NCBI GenBank assembly: GCA_003132445.1
Contig: PKXU01000082.1
Location: forward strand, 42,873-106,872
Direction: 5' to 3'
Length of the DNA stretch: 64,000 nt
Source: Acidobacteriaceae bacterium
GTDB taxonomy: Bacteria > Acidobacteriota > Terriglobia > Terriglobales > Acidobacteriaceae
Shown: positions 39,760 through 54,982 of the stretch, in pieces
Position numbering within the stretch: the first letter of the stretch is position 1
How the letters are laid out: every line of letters begins with the position of its first letter
Notes under the pieces: model-generated
What the model was told of the DNA's origin: nothing
What the model saw: the letters and a program-made list of their open reading frames with translations, nothing else
The model's database searches: none
Made by a program: the position numbers and the translations under genes

Positions 39760-42597
39760 TTAGTCATCGTCGCCTGAGGCGAGCACTGTGTGCTTGGGTT
39801 TAGGCATCGGCACCGACCCCATTTGATCGCGCCATAAGACTTCATTCAGGCGCGCCGCTGGTGTCGCATCGGGACGCGAGAAATCCATCTTCGACGAGAT
39901 TTTGGCTCCCGGTGCATTGGGCTTGTTGATTTCGTAAATGAGCCCATTTTTCAGATTGCGATAGTCGGCCTTATAGGCCGGCTGATCTCCTGCGCCCGAA
40001 AATAGTCGCCCCATCACCGGCGCATAGGCGTCGTTCTGATTCATCGGCGGAAGGCCAAGCAGCATTTCCATGGTATGGATCAGATTCACGGTCGTGTAGA
40101 AGCGATGTTCCACATTCGGCTGCGCTGCCGATCCGGGCGAATATTTGCTGATGACAAGAGCGATCGAGCGATGCGCGTCCACGTGATCCGCGCCATTCTG
40201 AGCGTCGTCTTCCAAAACGAAGATCGCCGTATCATCCCAGTACGCGCTGTGCGAAACCGCGTCCACCACCCGGCCCACCGCCAAGTCATTGTCGGCCACC
40301 GAGGCCGCAGGTCGCGGAAAATTAGGCCGCGTGCCGCCAGTGTGATCGTCAGGGAGATATAGCAGCACAAACGCCGGCAATTCCAACTGCGGACCTTCGT
40401 GCGCTTCGCGCGCGCGAACGTATGCGCCAAATTCATTTAGGAATTCGTCCGCTCGCAGTTGGTCGGGATACTCAGTATTGAAATCCGGATACAAGGGATC
40501 GAAGTGGTCGCGCAATACGGCCTTGGTTGGTTTCACTCCGCTAAACAATGGCACCGCCCACGGGAACGGACTCGGCCCGCCGTGTGGATTGCCGACATTC
40601 GACGCCAGAGTTTCTCCTTTCTGCAGCACGGTCTGCGGACAGCGAGCTTCCTGTCCTGACGGTGTTCCCTGCATCGAACTAGCCGCCTTGGGCTTCTCAT
40701 TGCACCACTTCGCATTCACAAATTCGCCATAATCGCGGAAGCTGACGTGGTTGCGCGCGAGATTATCCCAGAGAAATCCGGTCGAGGGATCGTCAATGTC
40801 GGGCTGGTTATTTTCCAGCGGATATTCGTCTCCCACCTGGCCCTGGAAGTCGTAGGTTCGCTCCTTGCCGCGGTAGGCAATCTGCCAGGTTTTTTCGTTG
40901 TAGTCTGACGTAATCGCGGCTGTGGACCAGAGATGTCCGTCGCCTGAGACTTCCCCGCTGTCGTAAAAATTGTCGAGCACGCCGAATTGCGATGCGAGCT
41001 CGTGCTCGTTTGGCGTTATATCCGCACCATACATCGCGAGCGATGGATCGCCGTTCGCAACCTTCAAGTCGCCGAGAATCTGATCATACGTACGGTTTTC
41101 CTTGATGACGTAGATCACATGCTTGATCGGATTCTTTCCCCCAGCGAACACAATCGTCCCTGAGCCGCTGGACGATATATCCCTGGAAAATAAATTGTCC
41201 TGTTCAACCATTCGCGTGAGCTCCGGCAGGCGATTTATGGCGTCGGAAATCTTCAGGCGTGCGACCGAACCATGCAGCAGCGTGGGGATGTAAGGATGAC
41301 CGTGGCTCTTCACTTCATGCGGCGTCTTCCCCAATCCATTGTTCGGACCAGTTCCAACACCCTTTGCCGTCGCAATCAGCAAGTCGTCTCCGTGCACTGC
41401 GACCGCGCTGGGATACCAGTCGGTGGGAATCAAACCGATATCTCCTTGTCCGTGAAGGCTTTTGTCCGTGGAAAAACTTGAGACGTCGAATACCGCCGCA
41501 GCATTTATGCATGCATAGGCAACAAAAACATTTCTGCCATCTTTCGACTGCGCCAGCGCGGTAGGACAAAGACCAGCGGCGGCATCTTTCTCTCTCGGGG
41601 TTCTGGTCAAGAGGCCACGAACTGTTCCGTTTTCCGTATCGACCACGGCTACTGTATCGGCGTTTGAAAGAGCAACATACAAAAGTTTCTCGTCCGCACT
41701 CAGCAGCATCGCAGTCGGATGCGAACTCGGAGCCAGCGGATCCTTCGAACCCGGCAGACCGATCGATTTAGCTATCCTCGCCCCAATCAATTCGATCTGA
41801 ACAATCTGCGAGGTATTCCACAGGCTGCACCAGGCTCGGATAGCGTGGCGCGTAGCCACGCAAGTATAAGGAAATGTCGAAGGCACCAAGTCCTTTGTAC
41901 TCATGTCGAAGGTTTCGACAATTTTTCCTGTACTCGGATCGAGCACGACTACGTTATCGGAAAGATTATTTGCAACGATGAGCCACTCCGAACCTTTCGG
42001 ATTGGCTATCACTGCCAAGCCCGCGGGATATGGAACCGCCGTGTTGGCGCTCGTTTGCTGCAAGCCGATCGCAACTCTTTTTCCCGGTTTAAGTGGCTGC
42101 GGCGCAATCGGAATGAAGCCTTGCGGCGTCACCTTCCCCGCGGAGAAACCATAAACGGCAATTCCGTTCCCCGTATCGCCAAGTCTCGCTCCGGTAGGGT
42201 CGGTCAACGAACCCACGGAGGCGTACAGCCGCTTGCCATCAGAACTGAAAGCCAGCCCGAGAAAATAGCTTTGGTGTGCATCATCGCCCAGCCGCGGGTC
42301 AGGATAGTCGGCGATTTGATTGCTCACCAGATCCAGTATCGAAATCGATTGATGTCCTAAAGTCTCCTGTGTGCCATAGCCATCGTTCAGCAAAGCAACG
42401 TATCGTCCGTCGGGACTCACGACCATGGTCGCGGGAAAACTATTAGTGCTGCCAATGCGCCCCGGAGATGGCGCGCTCAGCATTTTGCTGGTTGGCAACA
42501 TGATGGGAGGCTGATCGCCGGAAGGTGTCTGCGCGCATGCAACCACGGCCCCAGCCATTACAAAACTGCAGAAAAAATGAAGCAAAGAACGAATCAC
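39760..42597 (-). CDS. YncE-like beta-propeller / phosphoesterase fusion protein (alkaline phosphatase superfamily)
   Basis: Propeller repeats, then KHVIYVIKENRTYDQILGDL and HVDAHRSIALVISKYSPG; GTG start behind GGAGGT. Confidence 0.88.
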   Translation of the reverse strand: MIRSLLHFFCSFVMAGAVVACAQTPSGDQPPIMLPTSKMLSAPSPGRIGSTNSFPATMVVSPDGRYVALLNDGYGTQETLGHQSISILDLVSNQIADYPDPRLGDDAHQSYFLGLAFSSDGKRLYASVGSLTDPTGARLGDTGNGIAVYGFSAGKVTPQGFIPIAPQPLKPGKRVAIGLQQTSANTAVPYPAGLAVIANPKGSEWLIVANNLSDNVVVLDPSTGKIVETFDMSTKDLVPSTFPYTCVATRHAIRAWCSLWNTSQIVQIELIGARIAKSIGLPGSKDPLAPSSHPTAMLLSADEKLLYVALSNADTVAVVDTENGTVRGLLTRTPREKDAAAGLCPTALAQSKDGRNVFVAYACINAAAVFDVSSFSTDKSLHGQGDIGLIPTDWYPSAVAVHGDDLLIATAKGVGTGPNNGLGKTPHEVKSHGHPYIPTLLHGSVARLKISDAINRLPELTRMVEQDNLFSRDISSSGSGTIVFAGGKNPIKHVIYVIKENRTYDQILGDLKVANGDPSLAMYGADITPNEHELASQFGVLDNFYDSGEVSGDGHLWSTAAITSDYNEKTWQIAYRGKERTYDFQGQVGDEYPLENNQPDIDDPSTGFLWDNLARNHVSFRDYGEFVNAKWCNEKPKAASSMQGTPSGQEARCPQTVLQKGETLASNVGNPHGGPSPFPWAVPLFSGVKPTKAVLRDHFDPLYPDFNTEYPDQLRADEFLNEFGAYVRAREAHEGPQLELPAFVLLYLPDDHTGGTRPNFPRPAASVADNDLAVGRVVDAVSHSAYWDDTAIFVLEDDAQNGADHVDAHRSIALVISKYSPGSAAQPNVEHRFYTTVNLIHTMEMLLGLPPMNQNDAYAPVMGRLFSGAGDQPAYKADYRNLKNGLIYEINKPNAPGAKISSKMDFSRPDATPAARLNEVLWRDQMGSVPMPKPKHTVLASGDDD

Positions 42598-42735
42598 GGC
42601 ACCTCCGCGAATGTCGAACTGGAAATGAACGAGGTCATGAGCGTAATGCAATGCCGCATGGGCGGTCAAAAAAGGCAGGAACACAATGTGGTTTGAATAC
42701 TAGATGCCGGCTTCACCCTCGGAGGCCACGCCTCA

Positions 42736-44301: not shown

Positions 44302-45186
44302 TTATGCGGTTCCAAACGTTCCGCGGCGCACCGCGTATCGCACTGCCGCGACCGAGCTGACGATAAGAAGAATCAGCACAAACGATCCTGCCCAGGCTTG
44401 GCGATGCCAATCGTCATAGGGCGAATTGGCATACACGTAGATCTGCAGCGGCAGCGCGGCCGTCGGCTGATCGTAGCGAAGATTCCAAAATGTGTTGCCC
44501 AGAGCGGTAAAAAGCAAGGGCGCCGTTTCCCCCGCCACTCGGGCAAAGGCCAGCATAACTCCCGTGATCACGCCGGAAGTCGCTGTACGAAGTGTAACCG
44601 AAAGAGTGGTTCGCCAGCGTGGTACTCCCAGTCCGTAAGCCGCTTCCCGCAGCGCGCGCGGCACCAGCAGCAGCATCTCTTCAGTGGTGCGGCAGATCGT
44701 CGGAACCATCATGATGGCCAGCGCCACGCCACCCGCCAGCGCTGAGAATCCTCGACCGCGAACCAGAATCGCCCAGGCGACAATACCGATCACGATGGAG
44801 GGCACGCCATTTAATACATCCGCAGTAAAACGCACTGCGCTTCCAAAGCGATTGCGTCCAAACTCCGCCAGGTAAATTCCTGCACCCACTCCAAACGGTA
44901 CGCCAATGAGGCTGGCGATGCCGAGAATGAGCACCGACCCGGCAATCGCATTGGCCATGCCGCCACCGGGCTCACCCACCGGCTTGGGAGTCTGAGTCAG
45001 AAAGGCCCAGTTGATGGAACCCAAGCCGCGATACACCAGGTAGCCGAAGATGGCAACTAACGGAGCCAGCACCAGCACGACCGTCAAGACCGCAACGCCG
45101 GTCATGAAATGATCGGTAAAGCGGCGGCGCCAACTGATCTGCGAAACGGGTGGCTGCGCGGAAGGGTTGCCAGCAAGTTCAGGCAT
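44302..45186 (-). CDS. pstA: Phosphate ABC transporter permease PstA
   Basis: Multi-TM; GVPFGVGAGIYLAEFGRN; GVPSIVIGIVAW; in pst order. Confidence 0.96.
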   Translation of the reverse strand: MPELAGNPSAQPPVSQISWRRRFTDHFMTGVAVLTVVLVLAPLVAIFGYLVYRGLGSINWAFLTQTPKPVGEPGGGMANAIAGSVLILGIASLIGVPFGVGAGIYLAEFGRNRFGSAVRFTADVLNGVPSIVIGIVAWAILVRGRGFSALAGGVALAIMMVPTICRTTEEMLLLVPRALREAAYGLGVPRWRTTLSVTLRTATSGVITGVMLAFARVAGETAPLLFTALGNTFWNLRYDQPTAALPLQIYVYANSPYDDWHRQAWAGSFVLILLIVSSVAAVRYAVRRGTFGTA

Positions 45187-46213
45187 GTCCCCTCGCAGGC
45201 TGGCCTCGAGTTACGCTCCACACGAGCAACTGTGCCAGAGCGTTTACCACGATCGTGACCAGGAACAACGCCAGACCAATTTCCACCAGCGCGGAAAGGT
45301 AAACGTCTCCCGTAGCCTCGCTGAACTCGTTGGCCAGCACGCTGGCCATGGTATAGCCGGGAGCAAACAACGACTTCGCAATCTCGGGGCGGTTTCCGAT
45401 GACCATGGTGACTGCCATGGTTTCACCGAGCGCCCGGCCTAATCCAAGAATGATCCCGCCCACAATTCCAGCCCGTGCGTTGCGCAATACGCCCACGCGA
45501 ATCATCTCCCAACGTGTCGCGCCTAAGGCCAACACTCCCTCGCGCTGATGTTGCGGCACAACCATAAGAACTTCGCGCGTAATAGACGAAATGATCGGGA
45601 TGATCATGATGGCAAGAATGATCCCTGCTGCCAGCATGCCGATCCCGTACGGCGGACCTTCAAACAGTCCCGTCCACCCCATCGTCTTAGCCAGGAAAGG
45701 TTGAACGTACCCGCTCAACAACGGCACCAGCACAAACATCGCCCACAATCCGTAAATCACGCTGGGAATCGCGGCCAGCAACTCCACAAAGAACGATAGC
45801 GGGCCCCGCAGCCGCCCCGGGCACATCTCGGTAGTGAATACCGCAACTCCCACTGCCAGCGGAATGGCAATGATGAGCGCCAGAAATGAAGAAACCAGCG
45901 TCCCGTAAATGAACGGTAGAGCACCGAACTGTTCGCTGACGGGGTTCCAGTCGCTGCCCGCGAAAAACTTGAAACCAAATGCATGCCACGAAAGACCAGA
46001 CCCCGATATGAGTTCGTAGACGATCAGAACAAGCACGCCGAGCACGGCAAAGCCGCACACCGTCATCGCCGACTTAAAGAGACGGTCTGGGACCTCGCTG
46101 GTCGAGGCCCGCAGCAAGGGCGACGACCGCTCCCCCGATACCGCAGTAACTTTCGTCCCTTCAACAGGTTGCGGTCCGGGCATATTAGGCCGAGGAAGCG
46201 CTGGATTGGCCAT
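45179..46213 (-). CDS. pstC: Phosphate ABC transporter permease PstC
   Basis: Multi-TM; LLAAIPSVIYGLWAMFVLVPLL; GLGRALGETMAVTMVIGN; 8-nt overlap with pstA. Confidence 0.96.
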   Translation of the reverse strand: MANPALPRPNMPGPQPVEGTKVTAVSGERSSPLLRASTSEVPDRLFKSAMTVCGFAVLGVLVLIVYELISGSGLSWHAFGFKFFAGSDWNPVSEQFGALPFIYGTLVSSFLALIIAIPLAVGVAVFTTEMCPGRLRGPLSFFVELLAAIPSVIYGLWAMFVLVPLLSGYVQPFLAKTMGWTGLFEGPPYGIGMLAAGIILAIMIIPIISSITREVLMVVPQHQREGVLALGATRWEMIRVGVLRNARAGIVGGIILGLGRALGETMAVTMVIGNRPEIAKSLFAPGYTMASVLANEFSEATGDVYLSALVEIGLALFLVTIVVNALAQLLVWSVTRGQPARGHA

Positions 46214-46237
46214 TCCGCCTAACCGTAGCAGAGGCGT

Positions 46238-46255
46238 GTTACAAAGGTGTTAAAA
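46238..46255 (-). promoter_or_regulatory. Candidate Pho box upstream of pstC (GTTACAA-AGGT-GTTAAAA on + strand)
   Basis: Two 7-nt repeats with a 4-nt spacer (11-nt period), 25 nt upstream of the pstC start. Confidence 0.55.
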
Positions 46256-46367: not shown

Positions 46368-47243
46368 ATGTCGATCGCAGCCGACCGTAGCAAGTTTGCC
46401 TTTGAGAAGACCGAGCGCGCTTTGCTGAAGCTTTCTTCCGAGCAGGATGCGGAAAGCGTCCATGGCTTTCGCACCGCCAGCCGCAGGCTGCAAACACTCG
46501 TCGAACAGCTTCTTCCCGACCGCGACCGGAACCAGAAAAAACTTCTGAAGATGCTGGACCGGATTCGCCAGCGCGCGGGCAAAGTGCGCGACCTGGATGT
46601 TCAACTGGCGGCCTTGCGCAGCCTGAAGGTTCCTCAGCAGCCGCGCCGCAAGACTCAACTCATGCACGGCCTGATTGAACTTCGGGCAAAACATGAAAAG
46701 AAGCTGCGCAAATTATTGAGCAAAGATGCGATCCGTGAAATCCGCAAGAGACTCAAACGGGCCGCAAGACAGGTTCGTCCTGAAAACAGTCGCGACGCCC
46801 TGAGCGTCGCCCGCTCTATCTTGAGCGAAGTAGTCCGCCCTGCTGGGCCAGTTAGCGAAGATCTGTTACATCGCTACCGCATCGTCGTAAAGCGCGCCCG
46901 TTACGCAGCGGAGTTCGCTCCAAAATCCGCTGGAGCCACGCAATTGATTACCGAACTCAAGCGGCTTCAGGATGCCGTGGGCAACTGGCATGACTGGCTT
47001 ACCCTCACTCAATCCGCTGCCAAGCGGCTGGGCGATGTTAATCAATCGTCGCTGGTGGCCGCTCTTCACAATGTGACGGGCGGCAAATTCCGCCATGCTG
47101 TCGCGGCGCTGTCAGCCTCGCCAACCATTCAAAATACGGCGAAACCAGTCTCCGTCGTTCCCGAATCGCCTTCTTCTTCGCCGTCGCGCAAAGTGAACAG
47201 CAAGAGTCCAACACAGATGGAACGCATGGAGTCTGCCGCATAG
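46368..47243 (+). CDS. CHAD-domain protein
   Basis: ESVHGFRTASRRLQTLVEQLLPD; His/Lys/Arg-rich helices; RYRIVVKRARYAAEF. Confidence 0.9.
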   Translation: MSIAADRSKFAFEKTERALLKLSSEQDAESVHGFRTASRRLQTLVEQLLPDRDRNQKKLLKMLDRIRQRAGKVRDLDVQLAALRSLKVPQQPRRKTQLMHGLIELRAKHEKKLRKLLSKDAIREIRKRLKRAARQVRPENSRDALSVARSILSEVVRPAGPVSEDLLHRYRIVVKRARYAAEFAPKSAGATQLITELKRLQDAVGNWHDWLTLTQSAAKRLGDVNQSSLVAALHNVTGGKFRHAVAALSASPTIQNTAKPVSVVPESPSSSPSRKVNSKSPTQMERMESAA

Positions 47244-47540: not shown

Positions 47541-49070
47541 ATGCCCACGTTTGCCGCGGTCGATATCGGCTCCAACTCCGTACGATTAAAGATTGCGCGT
47601 TTGCAGGCGGGACGACTGCGCCCGCTCCATGAGGACCGGGAAGTTACGCGCCTGGGCGAAGGCGTTTTCGGTTCCGGATTTCTCACTCCTGATTCCATCG
47701 CGGAAACCGTAAAAGTTCTGCGCCGGTTCCATCGTGCCACGCAACAGATCGTCACTGACAACGTGCGTGTGGTTGCGACCAGCGCGCTGCGGGACGCGCG
47801 CAATTCGCAGGCATTCCTGGAGTGGGTGCGTTCGGCCACGGGCTGGCGAGTCGAGATCATTTCGGGCGTAGAAGAGGCGCGGCTCATTCACCTGGGGCTT
47901 GTCTCCAGTGGCCGCGTAGATCGGTCGCCCACGCTCATGATGGATCTTGGCGGCGGCAGTTGCGAACTCACCGTCACCCAGGGCGGCCACATTCGCGATG
48001 CAGTCAGCCTCCCTCTGGGGGCGGTTCGCCTGACCAACGAATTCCTGCGGCACGATCCCACGCGCAAAGGAGAATTGAAACGATTGCGCGGCTTCATTGC
48101 CCGTGAAGTCAATCGCATCATCGACCGCATTACTTCGGCGAAAGTAAAGAATGTGATTGCGACATCTGGAACGGCAGCTGCCTTGGCGGCCGTCGCCAGC
48201 CATCTGCGCCGGGGAACACGCAGCCAGCGGCTCATGGTGTCCTCTGCCGAAATGACCCGCATTGCCAAACGACTGGCCCGCCTGCCAGTCACCGAGCGCC
48301 GAAAAATCGAAGGTATTGGCCCACGCCGCGCGGAGATCGTCGTCGCCGGCGCCACCGTTTATCAGGAACTCATTGATCGGCTTCGCCTGAAAGGTTTCCG
48401 CTATTCGCCTCTCGGACTGCGCGACGGCATTCTCGCCCAGATGGCGGCCGACTACGATCGCAGCACTCGCTCCGGCCGACAGATCGAATTCGAGCGCTGG
48501 GAATCCATTATGACTGCGGTCGACCATTACCGTGTCGATCGCAAACATGCGCTGGACGTCCGCGACCATGCCACGCTGTTGTTCTCCGCGCTGCGATCAC
48601 TGCATCGCTTGCCTCCGGAATATCGCGAATGGCTTTCGGCCGCGGCCATGCTCTACGAAGTCGGCGACTACGTAAATCGGAACGGCCGGCACCGGCATAC
48701 TCACTACATCATTTCCAACTCTGAGATTCTCGGCTATACCCCGCAGCAACGGCGCATCATCGCCGCCGTCGCCCGCTATCTGGGAAAATCGCGCCCTGCT
48801 CTGGAGGATGGTCCCATGAAGTTGCTCGATCCAGGTGATCGCGCGAATGTGCAGAAGGCCATCCTGTTGCTTCGCTTGGCGCGTGCTTTGAACCTGGGCC
48901 GCAGTCGTGCAGTGGAAAAAGTGCGCGTGGGAGTTCGCTCGGCAGAAGTAAAGTTGAGTCTGGTCCCCAGGCGGCGAATGGGTGTGGATTTGGAACTCTG
49001 GGCAGTAGAGAAAGAACGCGATTATTTCCGCGAAGTCTTCGGCCGCGAACTCTCAACGGCTGTGTCGTAG
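47541..49070 (+). CDS. Exopolyphosphatase / GppA-family phosphatase with HD-like C-terminal domain
   Basis: AAVDIGSNSVRLKIARL; MMDLGGGSCELTV; ATSALRDARN. Confidence 0.95.
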   Translation: MPTFAAVDIGSNSVRLKIARLQAGRLRPLHEDREVTRLGEGVFGSGFLTPDSIAETVKVLRRFHRATQQIVTDNVRVVATSALRDARNSQAFLEWVRSATGWRVEIISGVEEARLIHLGLVSSGRVDRSPTLMMDLGGGSCELTVTQGGHIRDAVSLPLGAVRLTNEFLRHDPTRKGELKRLRGFIAREVNRIIDRITSAKVKNVIATSGTAAALAAVASHLRRGTRSQRLMVSSAEMTRIAKRLARLPVTERRKIEGIGPRRAEIVVAGATVYQELIDRLRLKGFRYSPLGLRDGILAQMAADYDRSTRSGRQIEFERWESIMTAVDHYRVDRKHALDVRDHATLLFSALRSLHRLPPEYREWLSAAAMLYEVGDYVNRNGRHRHTHYIISNSEILGYTPQQRRIIAAVARYLGKSRPALEDGPMKLLDPGDRANVQKAILLLRLARALNLGRSRAVEKVRVGVRSAEVKLSLVPRRRMGVDLELWAVEKERDYFREVFGRELSTAVS

Positions 49071-49552
49071 AGCGCCCTCAAAACTTTCGGCGTAACACAC
49101 CACTGTAGCGTGCCCGCAGCGCGGCGCATCTCCACCTTAGCCGCAGTGCCCTTTTTCAGTTCCACCGAGGCCTCGCAACCGGAATCGCTGATCACCGCGC
49201 CTAGAAATTGGCTCAGGTTCGGATTGTGCCCGACCACCAGAATCGCCTCCTGGCGCGCATATTTCTCCAGGAGTTTGCGAAAGTCAGCCAGCCCAGCCTC
49301 TGGGCGCAGCCCATTGTCGATCTGCAGCTTCCCTTCGTAACCTAATTCGTTGCCCACCAGAGAGGCGGTCTGAGTACAGCGCTTCAGTGGGCTGGAAACG
49401 ATCACGTCCACTTGCACATCGAGCGCGGCTAAAGCGCGTCCAACGTAGCCGCACTGTTCAATGCCTTCTTTATCGAGCGCCCGTTTCTCGTCCTTCTTCG
49501 GATTCACCAAATGCTCGCCCGCGCTGGCATGGCGTAGAAAATAGAGGATCAT
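49022..49552 (-). CDS. sixA: Phosphohistidine phosphatase SixA
   Basis: LYFLRHASAGEH; VIVSSPLKRCTQTA; VVGHNPNLSQ. Confidence 0.94.
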   Translation of the reverse strand: MILYFLRHASAGEHLVNPKKDEKRALDKEGIEQCGYVGRALAALDVQVDVIVSSPLKRCTQTASLVGNELGYEGKLQIDNGLRPEAGLADFRKLLEKYARQEAILVVGHNPNLSQFLGAVISDSGCEASVELKKGTAAKVEMRRAAGTLQWCVTPKVLRALYDTAVESSRPKTSRK

Positions 49553-49558
49553 CTGGGT

Positions 49559-51715
49559 TTATCGTTCCTTTCCCACCGCTTTTCGCTTTCCTGTTGGAAC
49601 GTGAGCGGGGATGGCGGTGGGAACCTTCCCTTCCGCAACCCGCATCAGGAAATCCTGCGCGCTGAAAGCCGCGGCCCCAGTGGGCGGCCGGCGATTGCGA
49701 GCGCCGTGCATGGGCTGCCAGGCACGCATGTAAGTAGCATCCTTCAACAGAATTCTTGCCTTACGGTTATCGGCCAAATAGGCATCCAAAATTTCATGCC
49801 GCACCCGTTCCCGCAACATTTCATCGCGCAGCGGCACCAGCACTTCGACACGCTCATAAAGATTGCGAGGCATCCAATCTGCGCTGCCGATATAAATCGC
49901 TTCTTCGCCCCCATTTGAAAAGTAGTAAATCCGGCTATGCTCCAGAAACCGGCCGACAATGCTGCGCACGCGGATGTGGTCGCTCACCCCGCGCACGCCC
50001 GGACGCAGCGCGCAGATACCGCGCACAATCAGATCAATCTGTACGCCAGCTTGCGACGCGCGGTAAAGGGCTTGGATCACACCCTTGTCCAACAGCGCGT
50101 TCATCTTCGCGATGATGCGAGCTTCTTTGCCCTGCCGCGCGTGCTCGGTCTCCCGATCAATGAGGGCGATGCACTTCTCCGCCAGATCCAGAGGAGCCAC
50201 CAAAAGCGGCTCGTAGCTTGGATTCTCAGCGTAAGCCGTCAGGAAACTGAAAACATCGTGCACGGCACGCGTGATCTCAGGATTGGCCGTGAACAAACTT
50301 AAATCAGTGTAGATTCTTGCAGTGTTTGCGTTGTAGTTCCCAGTGCCGATATGAGCATAACTGCGCGCCACCCCGTCAGGGTCGCGCCGCACCAGCAGAG
50401 ACAACTTGCAGTGCGTTTTCAGGCCCACCAGGCCGTGGAAGACCTGCACTCCCGCGTCTTCCAGATCGCGCGCCCAGCGTATATTCGAAGCTTCATCAAA
50501 GCGCGCCTTCAACTCCACCACGGTGGTTACTTCCTTGCGCGACGCCGCGTCCATTAGCGAAGGCACAATCAATGAATGTTCGCTGGTGCGGTAGAGAGTC
50601 TGCTTGATGGAAAGAACATTCTCATCCTCCGCCGCCGATTCAATAAACGAAATAACGGCGTCGTAGGAGTCGAATGGATGATGCAGCAGAATGTCATGCG
50701 CGCGCAGCTCCTCGAACAAGTCCTTGAATTTAGAAGTGAGCCGTAACTCGCGCGGAGAAAAAGCGGGGTCCTTGAGATCCGGCCGCTTCACCTGCTCGTA
50801 GACATTAAACAGGCGCGAAAGATTGACCGGACCATTTACCGGAAAAACCTGCCACGGATCCAGCTCGAACACCGTGCGCAAGCGATCGATGATCTCCGGG
50901 TCGGCATCCGCTTCAATTTCCATGCGGACCGCATCCCCTTTGCGCCGGTTATGCAATTCCGCACGCACCGATTCCAGCAGGCTTCTCGCCTCTTCTTCCG
51001 CCAAATACAGATTGCTGTTGCGAGTCACGCGAAAAGGCGCGGACGAAACGATGTCATATCCGTGGTACATGCGCACGGCATGATGTGCCACCAGGTCGGC
51101 CAGGAAAATAAAGTCGGCAGTGCCCTCTGACGGCAACCGCACCAGCCGTGGCAAAGCCCGCGGCACGGAAACTACGCCAGTGTAAGTGAGCGCCGAGCGC
51201 CGCCGCCGGCGCAGCAGAAAACCGAGACACAAAGCTTTGTTAATGACTCGTGGGAAGGGATGCGCCGGATCCACGGTAACCGGCGTCAACAGCGGGTCCA
51301 GTTCCTTTTCGCAGTATTCTTCTACGAAGCCTAAAGCATCGGCATCCAGTTCGTGCAGTCCCAGAACCCGAATTCCATTCTCGGCCAGCGCTGGACGCAA
51401 ACTTCCATTCCAGCAGTCATACTGATCGTCCACAAATTCGTGCGTCAGCCGGTTCAGTAGACCGCGTTTTTCCATCAGCGTTACACCGTCGGGCCCGGCC
51501 TCGTTGTAGCCGTCCTCGATTTGCTGCATCATGGCGGCCACGCGCACTTCGAAAAACTCATCCAGGTTGCTCGCGGAGATGGCCAGAAACTTCAGCCGCT
51601 CCAGAAGCGGATTTCCTTCGTCCGATGCCTCTTCGAGCACCCGCCGATTGAATGCCAGCCAGGAAGTGTCGCGGTTCAAAAAGTACTGTGGGTTGTCGAG
51701 CGAGATTCGAGCCAT
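49559..51715 (-). CDS. ppk1: Polyphosphate kinase 1
   Basis: FLNRDTSWLAFNRRVLEEA; LLHHPFDSYDAVISFI; GLKTHCKLSLLVRRD; IYIGSADWMPRNLYERVEV. Confidence 0.98.
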   Translation of the reverse strand: MARISLDNPQYFLNRDTSWLAFNRRVLEEASDEGNPLLERLKFLAISASNLDEFFEVRVAAMMQQIEDGYNEAGPDGVTLMEKRGLLNRLTHEFVDDQYDCWNGSLRPALAENGIRVLGLHELDADALGFVEEYCEKELDPLLTPVTVDPAHPFPRVINKALCLGFLLRRRRRSALTYTGVVSVPRALPRLVRLPSEGTADFIFLADLVAHHAVRMYHGYDIVSSAPFRVTRNSNLYLAEEEARSLLESVRAELHNRRKGDAVRMEIEADADPEIIDRLRTVFELDPWQVFPVNGPVNLSRLFNVYEQVKRPDLKDPAFSPRELRLTSKFKDLFEELRAHDILLHHPFDSYDAVISFIESAAEDENVLSIKQTLYRTSEHSLIVPSLMDAASRKEVTTVVELKARFDEASNIRWARDLEDAGVQVFHGLVGLKTHCKLSLLVRRDPDGVARSYAHIGTGNYNANTARIYTDLSLFTANPEITRAVHDVFSFLTAYAENPSYEPLLVAPLDLAEKCIALIDRETEHARQGKEARIIAKMNALLDKGVIQALYRASQAGVQIDLIVRGICALRPGVRGVSDHIRVRSIVGRFLEHSRIYYFSNGGEEAIYIGSADWMPRNLYERVEVLVPLRDEMLRERVRHEILDAYLADNRKARILLKDATYMRAWQPMHGARNRRPPTGAAAFSAQDFLMRVAEGKVPTAIPAHVPTGKRKAVGKER

Positions 51716-51869
51716 GGGAGAGCGCTTTACGTTTTATCTGTGAGATTTTCCCTGCGAACGATTCCCTTGAGTGCAGCTCCAAGTACGGGACCTTCAGTAT
51801 AAAGCATCGAGCAAGGCTACGCAGCCGCTTGACCCAAAAGAGATTCGAACCGTTGTCTTCGCTCAAAAT

Positions 51870-51909
51870 CAAAACGGCACCCAGACAGCGTGAATCTGTC
51901 CAGGTGCCG
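51870..51909 (-). terminator. Rho-independent-type terminator downstream of the porin gene
   Basis: Minus strand CGGCACC-tg-GACAG-N7-CTGTC-tg-GGTGCCG stem followed by TTTTGATTTT. Confidence 0.7.
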
Positions 51910-51964
51910 GTAGCTTTGCGTTGACCGGCAAAAGCGCCGGCAAAAGTGTCCGCCATTTCCTACG

Positions 51965-53773
51965 CTATGGCAGGTAGTAGCGGAACGACGTGAGTATCAT
52001 GTTGTCGACTCCCTGTGCGGAGCTTGGAGCACCCGCACCCGACCAGGAATTGCGGATTATGACCGAGTACTGCGGACCAAACTGTATTCGGCCCCAGTTA
52101 AATTTCTCCTTGGCTCCGTCAGCCACCTTGAACCAGACACCGGCAGTGCCTTCCATGACCACACGCGAGTCGCCCGTGCAATTCGAGAGCGCGCCAGGAG
52201 AGAATCCACCTGAACCCGGTCCGGTTTCGGTTAAGCAGCCGGTGTTGACAAAGAACGGCGACCCGTAACCCACATACTTTTTTTGCACCGGGTCATAGTC
52301 CGCCGCGCGGCCCGCATACTCTGCCCCGCCATTGAAGTAGATATCAGCCTTGGAGTTGTGGAATTCAAGAGTCGATAACCCTTGCAGGCTCTTGATGAGA
52401 TAAAGCGTTCCATTGGTGTGGACAGAAACGTCCGACAATCCTGCTGTGCCGTAGCGCCCCTCGCCGCTGCCGCCAAAGCCATGGAGTCCGAGATCGACGT
52501 GCTTATGGGCAAACGACCAGCGTACGTTGGCGCCGATTCCACCACCGTCCTTTGAACTGTTATACGCGCCAGTAGCGTTCGGTCCGGCCTTGGTGCTGCC
52601 GCCGCACACCGTGGTTGTGGCTACGTCTTCGCAAGGGAAGACACGATCGCGGAAGCGGCTGTACACGCCGAAAATTTCGTAGTGTCCGAAACCCGGCTCG
52701 AAAGCAAGCTTGGCAACGATATCGGGCGACGGATTGAAGGAATAGTTAGACTGGTTATTGAACAGGCCGCTGGTCACGCCCGCGGTTCCTACCAGGAAAT
52801 TGGAAGCGTTATTGTGCGCAGTGAGCGTGGCCGACGCGTCCTCCATCGACACCGCCAACCAAACCTTGTTGTTAAAGTTCTTCGCCAGGCGCAATCCGTA
52901 TTGCCGCGCCCAGCTGAAGCCCACCGTATATTGAGGGTCGATGGTCATTGGAGTCGCTTCCGTGCGATTATCCACGCCATGCTTGGTTTCCGTGACCAGA
53001 CTCCACATTTGTCCGCCGGTGACGCTCCAGCCATTGTCCATCTCGGCCTTGCCCCACGCTTGCCGCTGGCGGAGTGAGTAGCTGTTGCTTTGGTTGTTGT
53101 TGGAGGTATCAGCCGCCGACAGGAAGTCAGTTTCAACGTAACCCGACAACTTCGCGTTTCTCAAACGGCCTTCCACCAGCATCGAGAGTCGCGACTGCCG
53201 TCCGGAACCGAAGAATTCCGACATATTGTAGGTGGAGCTGCCGGGAAAGGGCACAGTGTTGAAGGGAGTGTTGATGTCCGCCCCCAGAGCACGTTGCCGC
53301 CAAACCGTTTCACCCGCCAGAAAGCCTCCCGGCGTGATGGTCACGCCTTTAACGTGAATAGCCATCGGAGCTGCCGAAATGTTCTTTTGTGTTTCCTGGA
53401 CGCTCACGACGGTGCTGGCGATATTGCTTTTCAGGTCAGTCACATCGCTCTTCAATTCGCTGACAGTCTGTTGTTGCTGCGCAGCTTGCGCCTGGGCCGT
53501 GTCCGCTTTGCTCTGTGCGTCGCTGGCCGCGCTTTGCGCCTGTTGCGTCGCCTGATCCTTGTTGTGAAGTTCATCGCGCAGTGCTTGAATCTCCCGTTGC
53601 TGCTGCGCCAGAGCCGCCTGTTGCGAGGCGATTGCATCCTTCAGCGCTTGCACATCCGCAGCGGTTACTGTCTCCGCCGGTCGTTTCTTCCTGGGTTGGG
53701 GCGCAGTGCTGGTCTGTCCGACCAGTCCCGTCGCCAGAGACAGAATGGCACACAACTTCCACACAGACTTCAT
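51965..53773 (-). CDS. Outer-membrane porin (DcaP-like/OprP-like) with N-terminal coiled coil
   Basis: Signal peptide, long QQ-rich heptad region, aromatic beta-barrel C-terminus (FRYYLP). Confidence 0.82.
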   Translation of the reverse strand: MKSVWKLCAILSLATGLVGQTSTAPQPRKKRPAETVTAADVQALKDAIASQQAALAQQQREIQALRDELHNKDQATQQAQSAASDAQSKADTAQAQAAQQQQTVSELKSDVTDLKSNIASTVVSVQETQKNISAAPMAIHVKGVTITPGGFLAGETVWRQRALGADINTPFNTVPFPGSSTYNMSEFFGSGRQSRLSMLVEGRLRNAKLSGYVETDFLSAADTSNNNQSNSYSLRQRQAWGKAEMDNGWSVTGGQMWSLVTETKHGVDNRTEATPMTIDPQYTVGFSWARQYGLRLAKNFNNKVWLAVSMEDASATLTAHNNASNFLVGTAGVTSGLFNNQSNYSFNPSPDIVAKLAFEPGFGHYEIFGVYSRFRDRVFPCEDVATTTVCGGSTKAGPNATGAYNSSKDGGGIGANVRWSFAHKHVDLGLHGFGGSGEGRYGTAGLSDVSVHTNGTLYLIKSLQGLSTLEFHNSKADIYFNGGAEYAGRAADYDPVQKKYVGYGSPFFVNTGCLTETGPGSGGFSPGALSNCTGDSRVVMEGTAGVWFKVADGAKEKFNWGRIQFGPQYSVIIRNSWSGAGAPSSAQGVDNMILTSFRYYLP

Positions 53774-53830
53774 CGTCCTCTCCTTTTTGTGCCGCGATGA
53801 ATGAATATCCCCCGCCGCTTGCGGAGTTTT

Positions 53831-54835
53831 TTATTTGACCTGCTTGATTGCTTCTTTCACTTTCGCCACAACATTTTCCGGCAATGGTGCGTAGGACAGC
53901 TCAGAAGTCATCTTCTGACCGTCAGTAACCATCCAGTTCAGAAAGTCGGCCAGGATCTTGCCCTTTGCCGGATCCTTCGACTGCGCCGGAATCAGCAACC
54001 AGGTAAAACTGGAAATCGGATAGGCATCTTTTCCGGGAGCGTTCGTGATTGACACCCGGAAATCCGGCGGCATCTTTGGCGCCGAAGCGGCCGCCGCGGT
54101 AACGCTCTCCAGTGACGCCTTCACGAAAGCTCCAGCGGAATTGCCCACGCTCCCGTATGGAATCTTGTTCTGCACCGCGTAAATTAACTCTACGTAACCA
54201 ATCGACCCCGGCAGCTGGCGAATAAATCCCGCGACCCCCTCGTTCCCCTTTCCTCCCATACCAACCGGCCACTTCACCGAGGTGTCGCTGCCCACCTGGC
54301 TCTTCCACTCCGGACTCACCTTGGAAAGATAGTCGGTCCAGATAAAGGTAGTGCCGCTGCCGTCGGAACGATGCACCACGATGATTTCCTTGTCGGGCAA
54401 GCTTACTCCCGGGTTCGCCGAGGTAATCGCTTTGTCATTCCATTTGGAGATCCTGCCCAGGAAAATTCCCGCCAAAGCTTCGGGCGTGAATTTAATTTCC
54501 CCGGTTACTCCGGGAATGTTGTAGGCCGGTACATCTGCTCCCAGTACGGTCGGAATATTCAGAATCTTCGTCTTCGCTTCCTGGAGTTGCTTGTCCGTCA
54601 TGGGCATGTCGCTGGCACCGAAATCCACGGTGCCGGCCGTTACCTGTCGGATTCCGCCGCCGCTGCCGATGGACTGATAGTTAACTTGCGCCTCAGAATG
54701 CAGTTTGTGATATTCGCTGAACCACTTCGAATAGATCGGATATGGAAACGTTGCCCCGGCTGCGTTTAGCGTTGTCTGCCCCACTACCGGCATCGCCAGC
54801 AGCACACACACCAACAGCAGCATGATCTTGCGCAC
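53831..54835 (-). CDS. pstS: Phosphate ABC transporter substrate-binding protein PstS
   Basis: LNAAGATFPYPIYSKWFSEY; QSIGSGGGIRQVTAGTVDFGASDMPM; VHRSDGSGTTFIWTDYLSKVSPEW. Confidence 0.98.
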   Translation of the reverse strand: MRKIMLLLVCVLLAMPVVGQTTLNAAGATFPYPIYSKWFSEYHKLHSEAQVNYQSIGSGGGIRQVTAGTVDFGASDMPMTDKQLQEAKTKILNIPTVLGADVPAYNIPGVTGEIKFTPEALAGIFLGRISKWNDKAITSANPGVSLPDKEIIVVHRSDGSGTTFIWTDYLSKVSPEWKSQVGSDTSVKWPVGMGGKGNEGVAGFIRQLPGSIGYVELIYAVQNKIPYGSVGNSAGAFVKASLESVTAAAASAPKMPPDFRVSITNAPGKDAYPISSFTWLLIPAQSKDPAKGKILADFLNWMVTDGQKMTSELSYAPLPENVVAKVKEAIKQVK

Positions 54836-54881
54836 CAGGTAATTCCTCCTTTAAATTGATATCCCGTTCTAGCGGCAGAAT

Positions 54882-54899
54882 GTTACAAGACGGTTACAG
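54882..54899 (-). promoter_or_regulatory. Candidate Pho box upstream of pstS (minus strand CTGTAAC-CGTC-TTGTAAC)
   Basis: Two 7-nt repeats with a 4-nt spacer, same layout as the enterobacterial PHO box, 47 nt upstream of the pstS start. Confidence 0.65.
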
Positions 54900-54982
54900 G
54901 CGGGTGAATTTCTGATGAAAGGCACAGCACTCAATGCAGGGATTGAGACAGGCTGCTCAAAAGCAAGGGAATTTCATTTTTT

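Follow-up and report, generated by a model that had tools for sequence, protein, structure and literature searches.

A Pho-box-type element conserved upstream of pstC in Candidatus Sulfotelmatobacter and related Acidobacteriota faces pstC and not the divergent CHAD-domain gene

The question raised by this locus was which gene is served by a short direct repeat situated between two divergent genes, pstC and a gene for a CHAD-domain protein. The window analysed is a 64-kb stretch of contig PKXU01000082.1 from an Acidobacteriaceae bacterium. The first-pass annotation had read GTTACAA-AGGT-GTTAAAA on the plus strand as a Pho-box-like element from which both genes could be controlled. The repeat was indeed found at 46238-46255, it does lie between pstC and the CHAD gene, and the GTTACAA half recurs, as was said, at pstS (54882-54888, within the pstS site at 54882-54899). 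Pho boxes are defined as two 7-nt direct repeats with 4-nt spacing, and their consensus varies between species (PMC4415409). Assignment to this type was upheld by conservation and by a cross-motif test, but it is the minus strand, not the plus, that is informative, since there the box is accompanied by a -10 element at canonical distance and faces pstC. Strand and target of the original finding are corrected here to the minus strand and pstC.

The coordinates of the features are given in Table 1. On the minus strand the order is TTTTAAC-ACCT-TTGTAAC, 10 nt (ACGCCTCTGC), TACGGT, 8 nt, and ATG. Two 7-nt direct repeats with a 4-nt gap, i.e., with an 11-bp period, have the build of a PhoB/PhoP-type Pho box, and this box occupies the place of the -35 element at a fixed distance from the -10 and in the same orientation as pstC, as in promoters of this type. 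PhoB sites in E. coli overlap the -35 region (PMC3348028, PMC2695467), and E. coli phoA, taken as a control, reads CTGTCATAAAGTTGTCAC-GGCCGAGACT-TATAGT, with 10 nt from box to -10 and the box facing phoA. When the repeat was read on the plus strand, facing CHAD, no -10 was found at the corresponding distance. A search against Rfam gave no RNA family in the window.

Table 1. Features of the pstC and pstS promoter regions (positions in the 64-kb window).
Feature	Position	Strand	Description
Pho-box-type element at pstC	46238..46255	-	Repeats TTTTAAC (46255-46249) and TTGTAAC (46244-46238), spacer ACCT (4 nt), 11-bp period
Extended -10 of pstC, TGcTACGGT	46222..46230	-	Hexamer TACGGT 46227-46222, first base 10 nt past the box
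pstC start region	46211..46221	-	8 nt TAGGCGGA, then ATG; predicted near-leaderless
pstC	45179..46213	-	First gene of pstC-pstA-pstB-phoU (to 42736); TIGR02138, 308 bits
CHAD-domain gene, divergent neighbour	46368..47243	+	PF05235, 77 bits; ATG 112 nt from the box
pstS promoter	54882..54919	-	Four tandem 11-bp units TTCAT, TTCAC, TGTAAC, TGTAAC, i.e., two Pho boxes
-10 of pstS, TAGAAC	54866..54871	-	10 nt past the box

The pstC loci used for comparison were drawn from congeners and named genomes, comprising Candidatus Sulfotelmatobacter and related Acidobacteriota, and by this comparison the window itself belongs among these. From 106 pstC loci 71 distinct promoters matching the box pattern were obtained, with box, spacing and -10 preserved. 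Seven loci had no match to the pattern; one of them was a slight variant, and six were divergent pstC loci (62-72% identity) in which a TAAC/TCAC repeat, the 10 nt and TAnnnT were decayed and still recognisable. All 71 promoters had 10 nt from box to TAnnnT, the TG of TGnTAnnnT at +7 after the box, and an invariant first T, A and last T in the -10 hexamer; the last T, unlike some columns of the box, was not fixed by the search pattern. Information content was approximately 1.3-1.5 bits per column within the element, a value inflated for some box columns because the search pattern selected them, versus approximately 0.0-0.2 outside, and the intergenic DNA beyond the element was nearly random between species.

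The same alignment bears on how the pstC message begins. In 68 of the 71 promoters the -10 ended 7-9 nt before the start codon, and a Shine-Dalgarno-like GGAG, GAGG or AGGA was present in only seven. The chosen ATG is supported by an excess of third-position substitutions in codons 2-11 of pstC. According to the criterion of Zheng et al. (2011, PMC3160421), leaderless genes have TANNNT approximately 12 bp before the start codon; pstC has a TANNNT at about this distance and no Shine-Dalgarno sequence, and, because of this together with the support for the ATG, its message is predicted to be near-leaderless across the clade. While the position of TAnnnT resembles that in the leaderless genes of the cited study, the leaderless-type start of pstC differs in being coupled to a Pho box. 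The genes following pstC, i.e., pstA, pstB and phoU, scored above the cut-offs of their equivalog profiles. Across the clade, most pst loci have the gene of a large protein after phoU (39760-42684 on the minus strand in the window); by inspection this protein has one portion resembling YVTN repeats and another resembling a phosphoesterase.

With at most two mismatches, GTTACAANNNNGTTANAA was matched three times in the window, against 0.26 matches expected from shuffles. Over the whole genome TGTAACN5TGTAAC with at most one mismatch gave 14 matches and its reversed control 15, i.e., there was no enrichment; the bare motif was therefore not used alone as evidence, and context and conservation must decide. 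A motif made from pstS promoters only placed the pstC site second among approximately 128,000 window positions (15.4 vs. 10.4 for the next), and a motif made from pstC promoters only gave the pstS site the same rank (15.2 vs. 6.7). The composite pstS-type pattern was matched 24 times in 37 congeneric genomes, never at CHAD. Six of these matches were not at an already known pstS, five being at homologues of a pst-associated porin and one at a truncated pstS. Conservation over the 71 promoters, the cross-motif test and the composite pattern (24 matches vs. 0 in the reversed control) are beyond chance. Sequence comparison thus strongly supports the view of 46238-46255 as a conserved Pho-box-type phosphate-starvation element common to pstC and pstS. 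The regulon of the window's own genome was sampled by pattern search only; the element was common to other phosphate-uptake promoters of this genome, namely pstS in the window and, elsewhere, matches near a fragment of a phosphate:H+ symporter and within an arsenic-resistance cluster that contains another pst system.

CHAD domains bind polyphosphate (PMC6537752), and a bidirectional site governing both pstC and CHAD, as the first-pass annotation had proposed, would tie phosphate import to polyphosphate handling. CHAD was the divergent neighbour in 41 of the 71 promoters, the remainder having ppx (16), a codirectional porin (2) or an unrecognised or off-contig neighbour (12). PhoB bound at the box would be within approximately 110 bp of the CHAD start, and there is a precedent for a phosphate-controlled CHAD gene in Streptomyces lividans, where pptA belongs to the Pho regulon via the ppk operon (PMC8003754). 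In S. lividans, however, the CHAD gene is co-transcribed with ppk, whereas here it is transcribed away from pstC, with no box directed towards it. The box was unchanged whatever the neighbour, and it was kept in the 30 promoters without recognised CHAD. Furthermore, box and pstC start were 40-43 nt apart in almost all promoters, while the distance to the CHAD start ranged from 58 to 191 nt (sd 31), which assigns the box to pstC. Neither a fixed CHAD distance nor loss of the box together with CHAD, both to be expected from bidirectional control, was observed. The CHAD genes of genomes without a pstC-CHAD pair had no box facing them, although these genes are mostly of 500-600 aa and maybe not orthologous, so that the missing box is weak evidence. 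A promoter scan upstream of CHAD was overall no better than shuffles; one subclade consistently has a recognisable separate promoter, TTGCCT-17-TATTTT, 23-32 nt before the CHAD ATG. Since the box stays the same with different neighbours, lies at variable distance from CHAD and faces away from it, dual control is not supported and we regard it as unlikely. Conservation in orthologous intergenic regions, which had been suggested as a check, was confirmed for the site with pstC but not with CHAD, and CHAD probably uses its own promoter. At the start of one contig (L193, 1-300), which carries CHAD and ppx, a pstC-type box and -10 remain with no pstC after them; this box faces away from CHAD and is a possible relic of rearrangement.

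Assigned to pstC, the element is very probably a PhoB-activated promoter for a near-leaderless pstCAB-phoU transcript. At low phosphate PhoR would phosphorylate PhoB, and a PhoB dimer would take the place of the -35 element, bound in head-to-tail fashion to the pair of 11-bp repeats of the pstC strand. Bound PhoB would then guide RNA polymerase onto the extended -10, which lies 10 nt downstream, and transcription of pstC would begin approximately 1-3 nt ahead of the ATG. Another promoter of this kind, in which there are four repeats and a normal leader follows, would drive pstS.

A candidate for the regulator is found in the same genome (C191), where a PhoB-like gene adjoins a PhoR-like kinase gene as in a PhoB-PhoR pair. 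The best matches of the two were to TIGR02154 and to the PnpS/PhoR families, below the curated cut-offs (246 bits vs. 296 for PhoB and TIGR02154). Orthologues of this PhoB, 88-94% identical, were found in all 18 congeners searched, i.e., in 19 of 19 genomes of the genus with the window's own included. The genome has two further PhoB-like regulators, C116 and C152, and the promoter might be an OmpR-family one read by one of these instead of the PhoR-paired protein, as the three have similar TIGR02154 scores and may recognise similar repeats. This is very unlikely, considering that the paired protein scores highest and is the best conserved in the genus, while few of the searched congeners had a match of similar identity to the C152 copy, which is part of an arsenic island. 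In the case of C116, the regulator gene adjoins a PhoU-like gene and weak box-like sites are near (L057, 1914-3676). A constitutive promoter of the ordinary sigma-70 type, with an AT-rich upstream stretch that merely happens to look like a Pho box, is extremely unlikely. The conserved -10 and the frequency of the bare motif when one mismatch is allowed would agree with such a promoter, but the promoter scan found no -35 hexamer 16-18 nt from the pstC -10 and no consensus sigma-70 promoter on either strand of the pstC/CHAD intergenic region, and the two repeats are kept with the same 11-bp period and identical spacing at the unrelated pstS promoter.

The pstS promoter is 8.6 kb from the pstC promoter and reads CTGTAAC-CGTC-TTGTAAC, 10 nt, TAGAAC on the minus strand. 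Its four-unit build is kept in relatives and, in contrast to pstC, it is followed by a normal leader with a strong Shine-Dalgarno sequence, AGGAGG. A tentative interpretation, to which we give slightly less than even weight, is that the clade splits its phosphate importer between two Pho promoters of unlike build, pstS having four repeats and a ribosome-binding leader, whereas pstCAB-phoU would have two repeats and be translated from a leaderless message. The amount of PhoB and the mode of translation would then jointly set how much binding protein is made relative to the channel, and how much PhoU relative to the transporter. In most loci pstS-(porin)-ppk-sixA are placed on one strand (49022-54835 in the window), so that transcription from the pstS Pho promoter may read through into ppk, the polyphosphate kinase gene; such read-through would be a more plausible link between Pho and polyphosphate than CHAD. 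The gene after pstS (51965-53773, minus strand) encodes a 602-aa putative porin with a signal peptide, a coiled coil and predicted strands. It had no match in Pfam, its profile gave only coiled-coil noise against PDB, and the predicted fold of the pst-associated porin was unusable (mean pLDDT 37). Relocated homologues in five genomes (L197, L217, L218, L219, and L220) each have their own multi-repeat Pho promoter. This undescribed putative outer-membrane porin is singled out as a likely Pho-controlled target.

That pst genes are preceded by a Pho box is to be expected. The element resembles the E. coli PhoB promoters of phoA and pstS in the 7-nt repeats, the 4-nt spacer and the box replacing the -35 (PMC4415409, PMC3348028), and phoA in particular in having exactly 10 nt from box to -10 and in pointing at a phosphate gene. 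It differs in the repeat core, TGTAAC/TTTAAC/TTCAC here versus CTGTCAT in E. coli, TTGTAAC and CTGTCAT having T-G-T-x-A in common; the consensus varies between species (PMC4415409). It also differs in that pstC has a promoter separate from that of pstS, with an extended -10 and a predicted near-leaderless start. The PhoP boxes of Streptomyces (GTTCACC) are likewise 11-bp direct repeats, and the upstream pstS units of the window contain TTCAC. No paper treating Pho box, PhoB and Acidobacteria together was found in a full-text literature search, and the Pho box definition of this clade, its extended -10 and its near-leaderless start appear to be undescribed in the literature searched. For this soil group, which is abundant and mostly uncultured, the data define by comparison the Pho box and the geometry of its promoter, and the pattern of box, 10 nt and TAnnnT is usable to find phosphate-starvation genes in metagenome-assembled genomes.

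Two sites elsewhere in the window's own genome complete the records. The best box outside pst loci stands before the phosphate:H+ symporter fragment (L003, 1500-1750, in C43), which is short and looks truncated (TIGR00887, E 2e-8). The arsenic-resistance cluster of C152 (L054/L055) contains, by inspection, arsR, arsC-like, ArsA-like, arsenite methyltransferase and Acr3-like genes, along with a second pstSCAB-phoU and the PhoB-like regulator, and has a box approximately 0.3 kb upstream of the second pstS.
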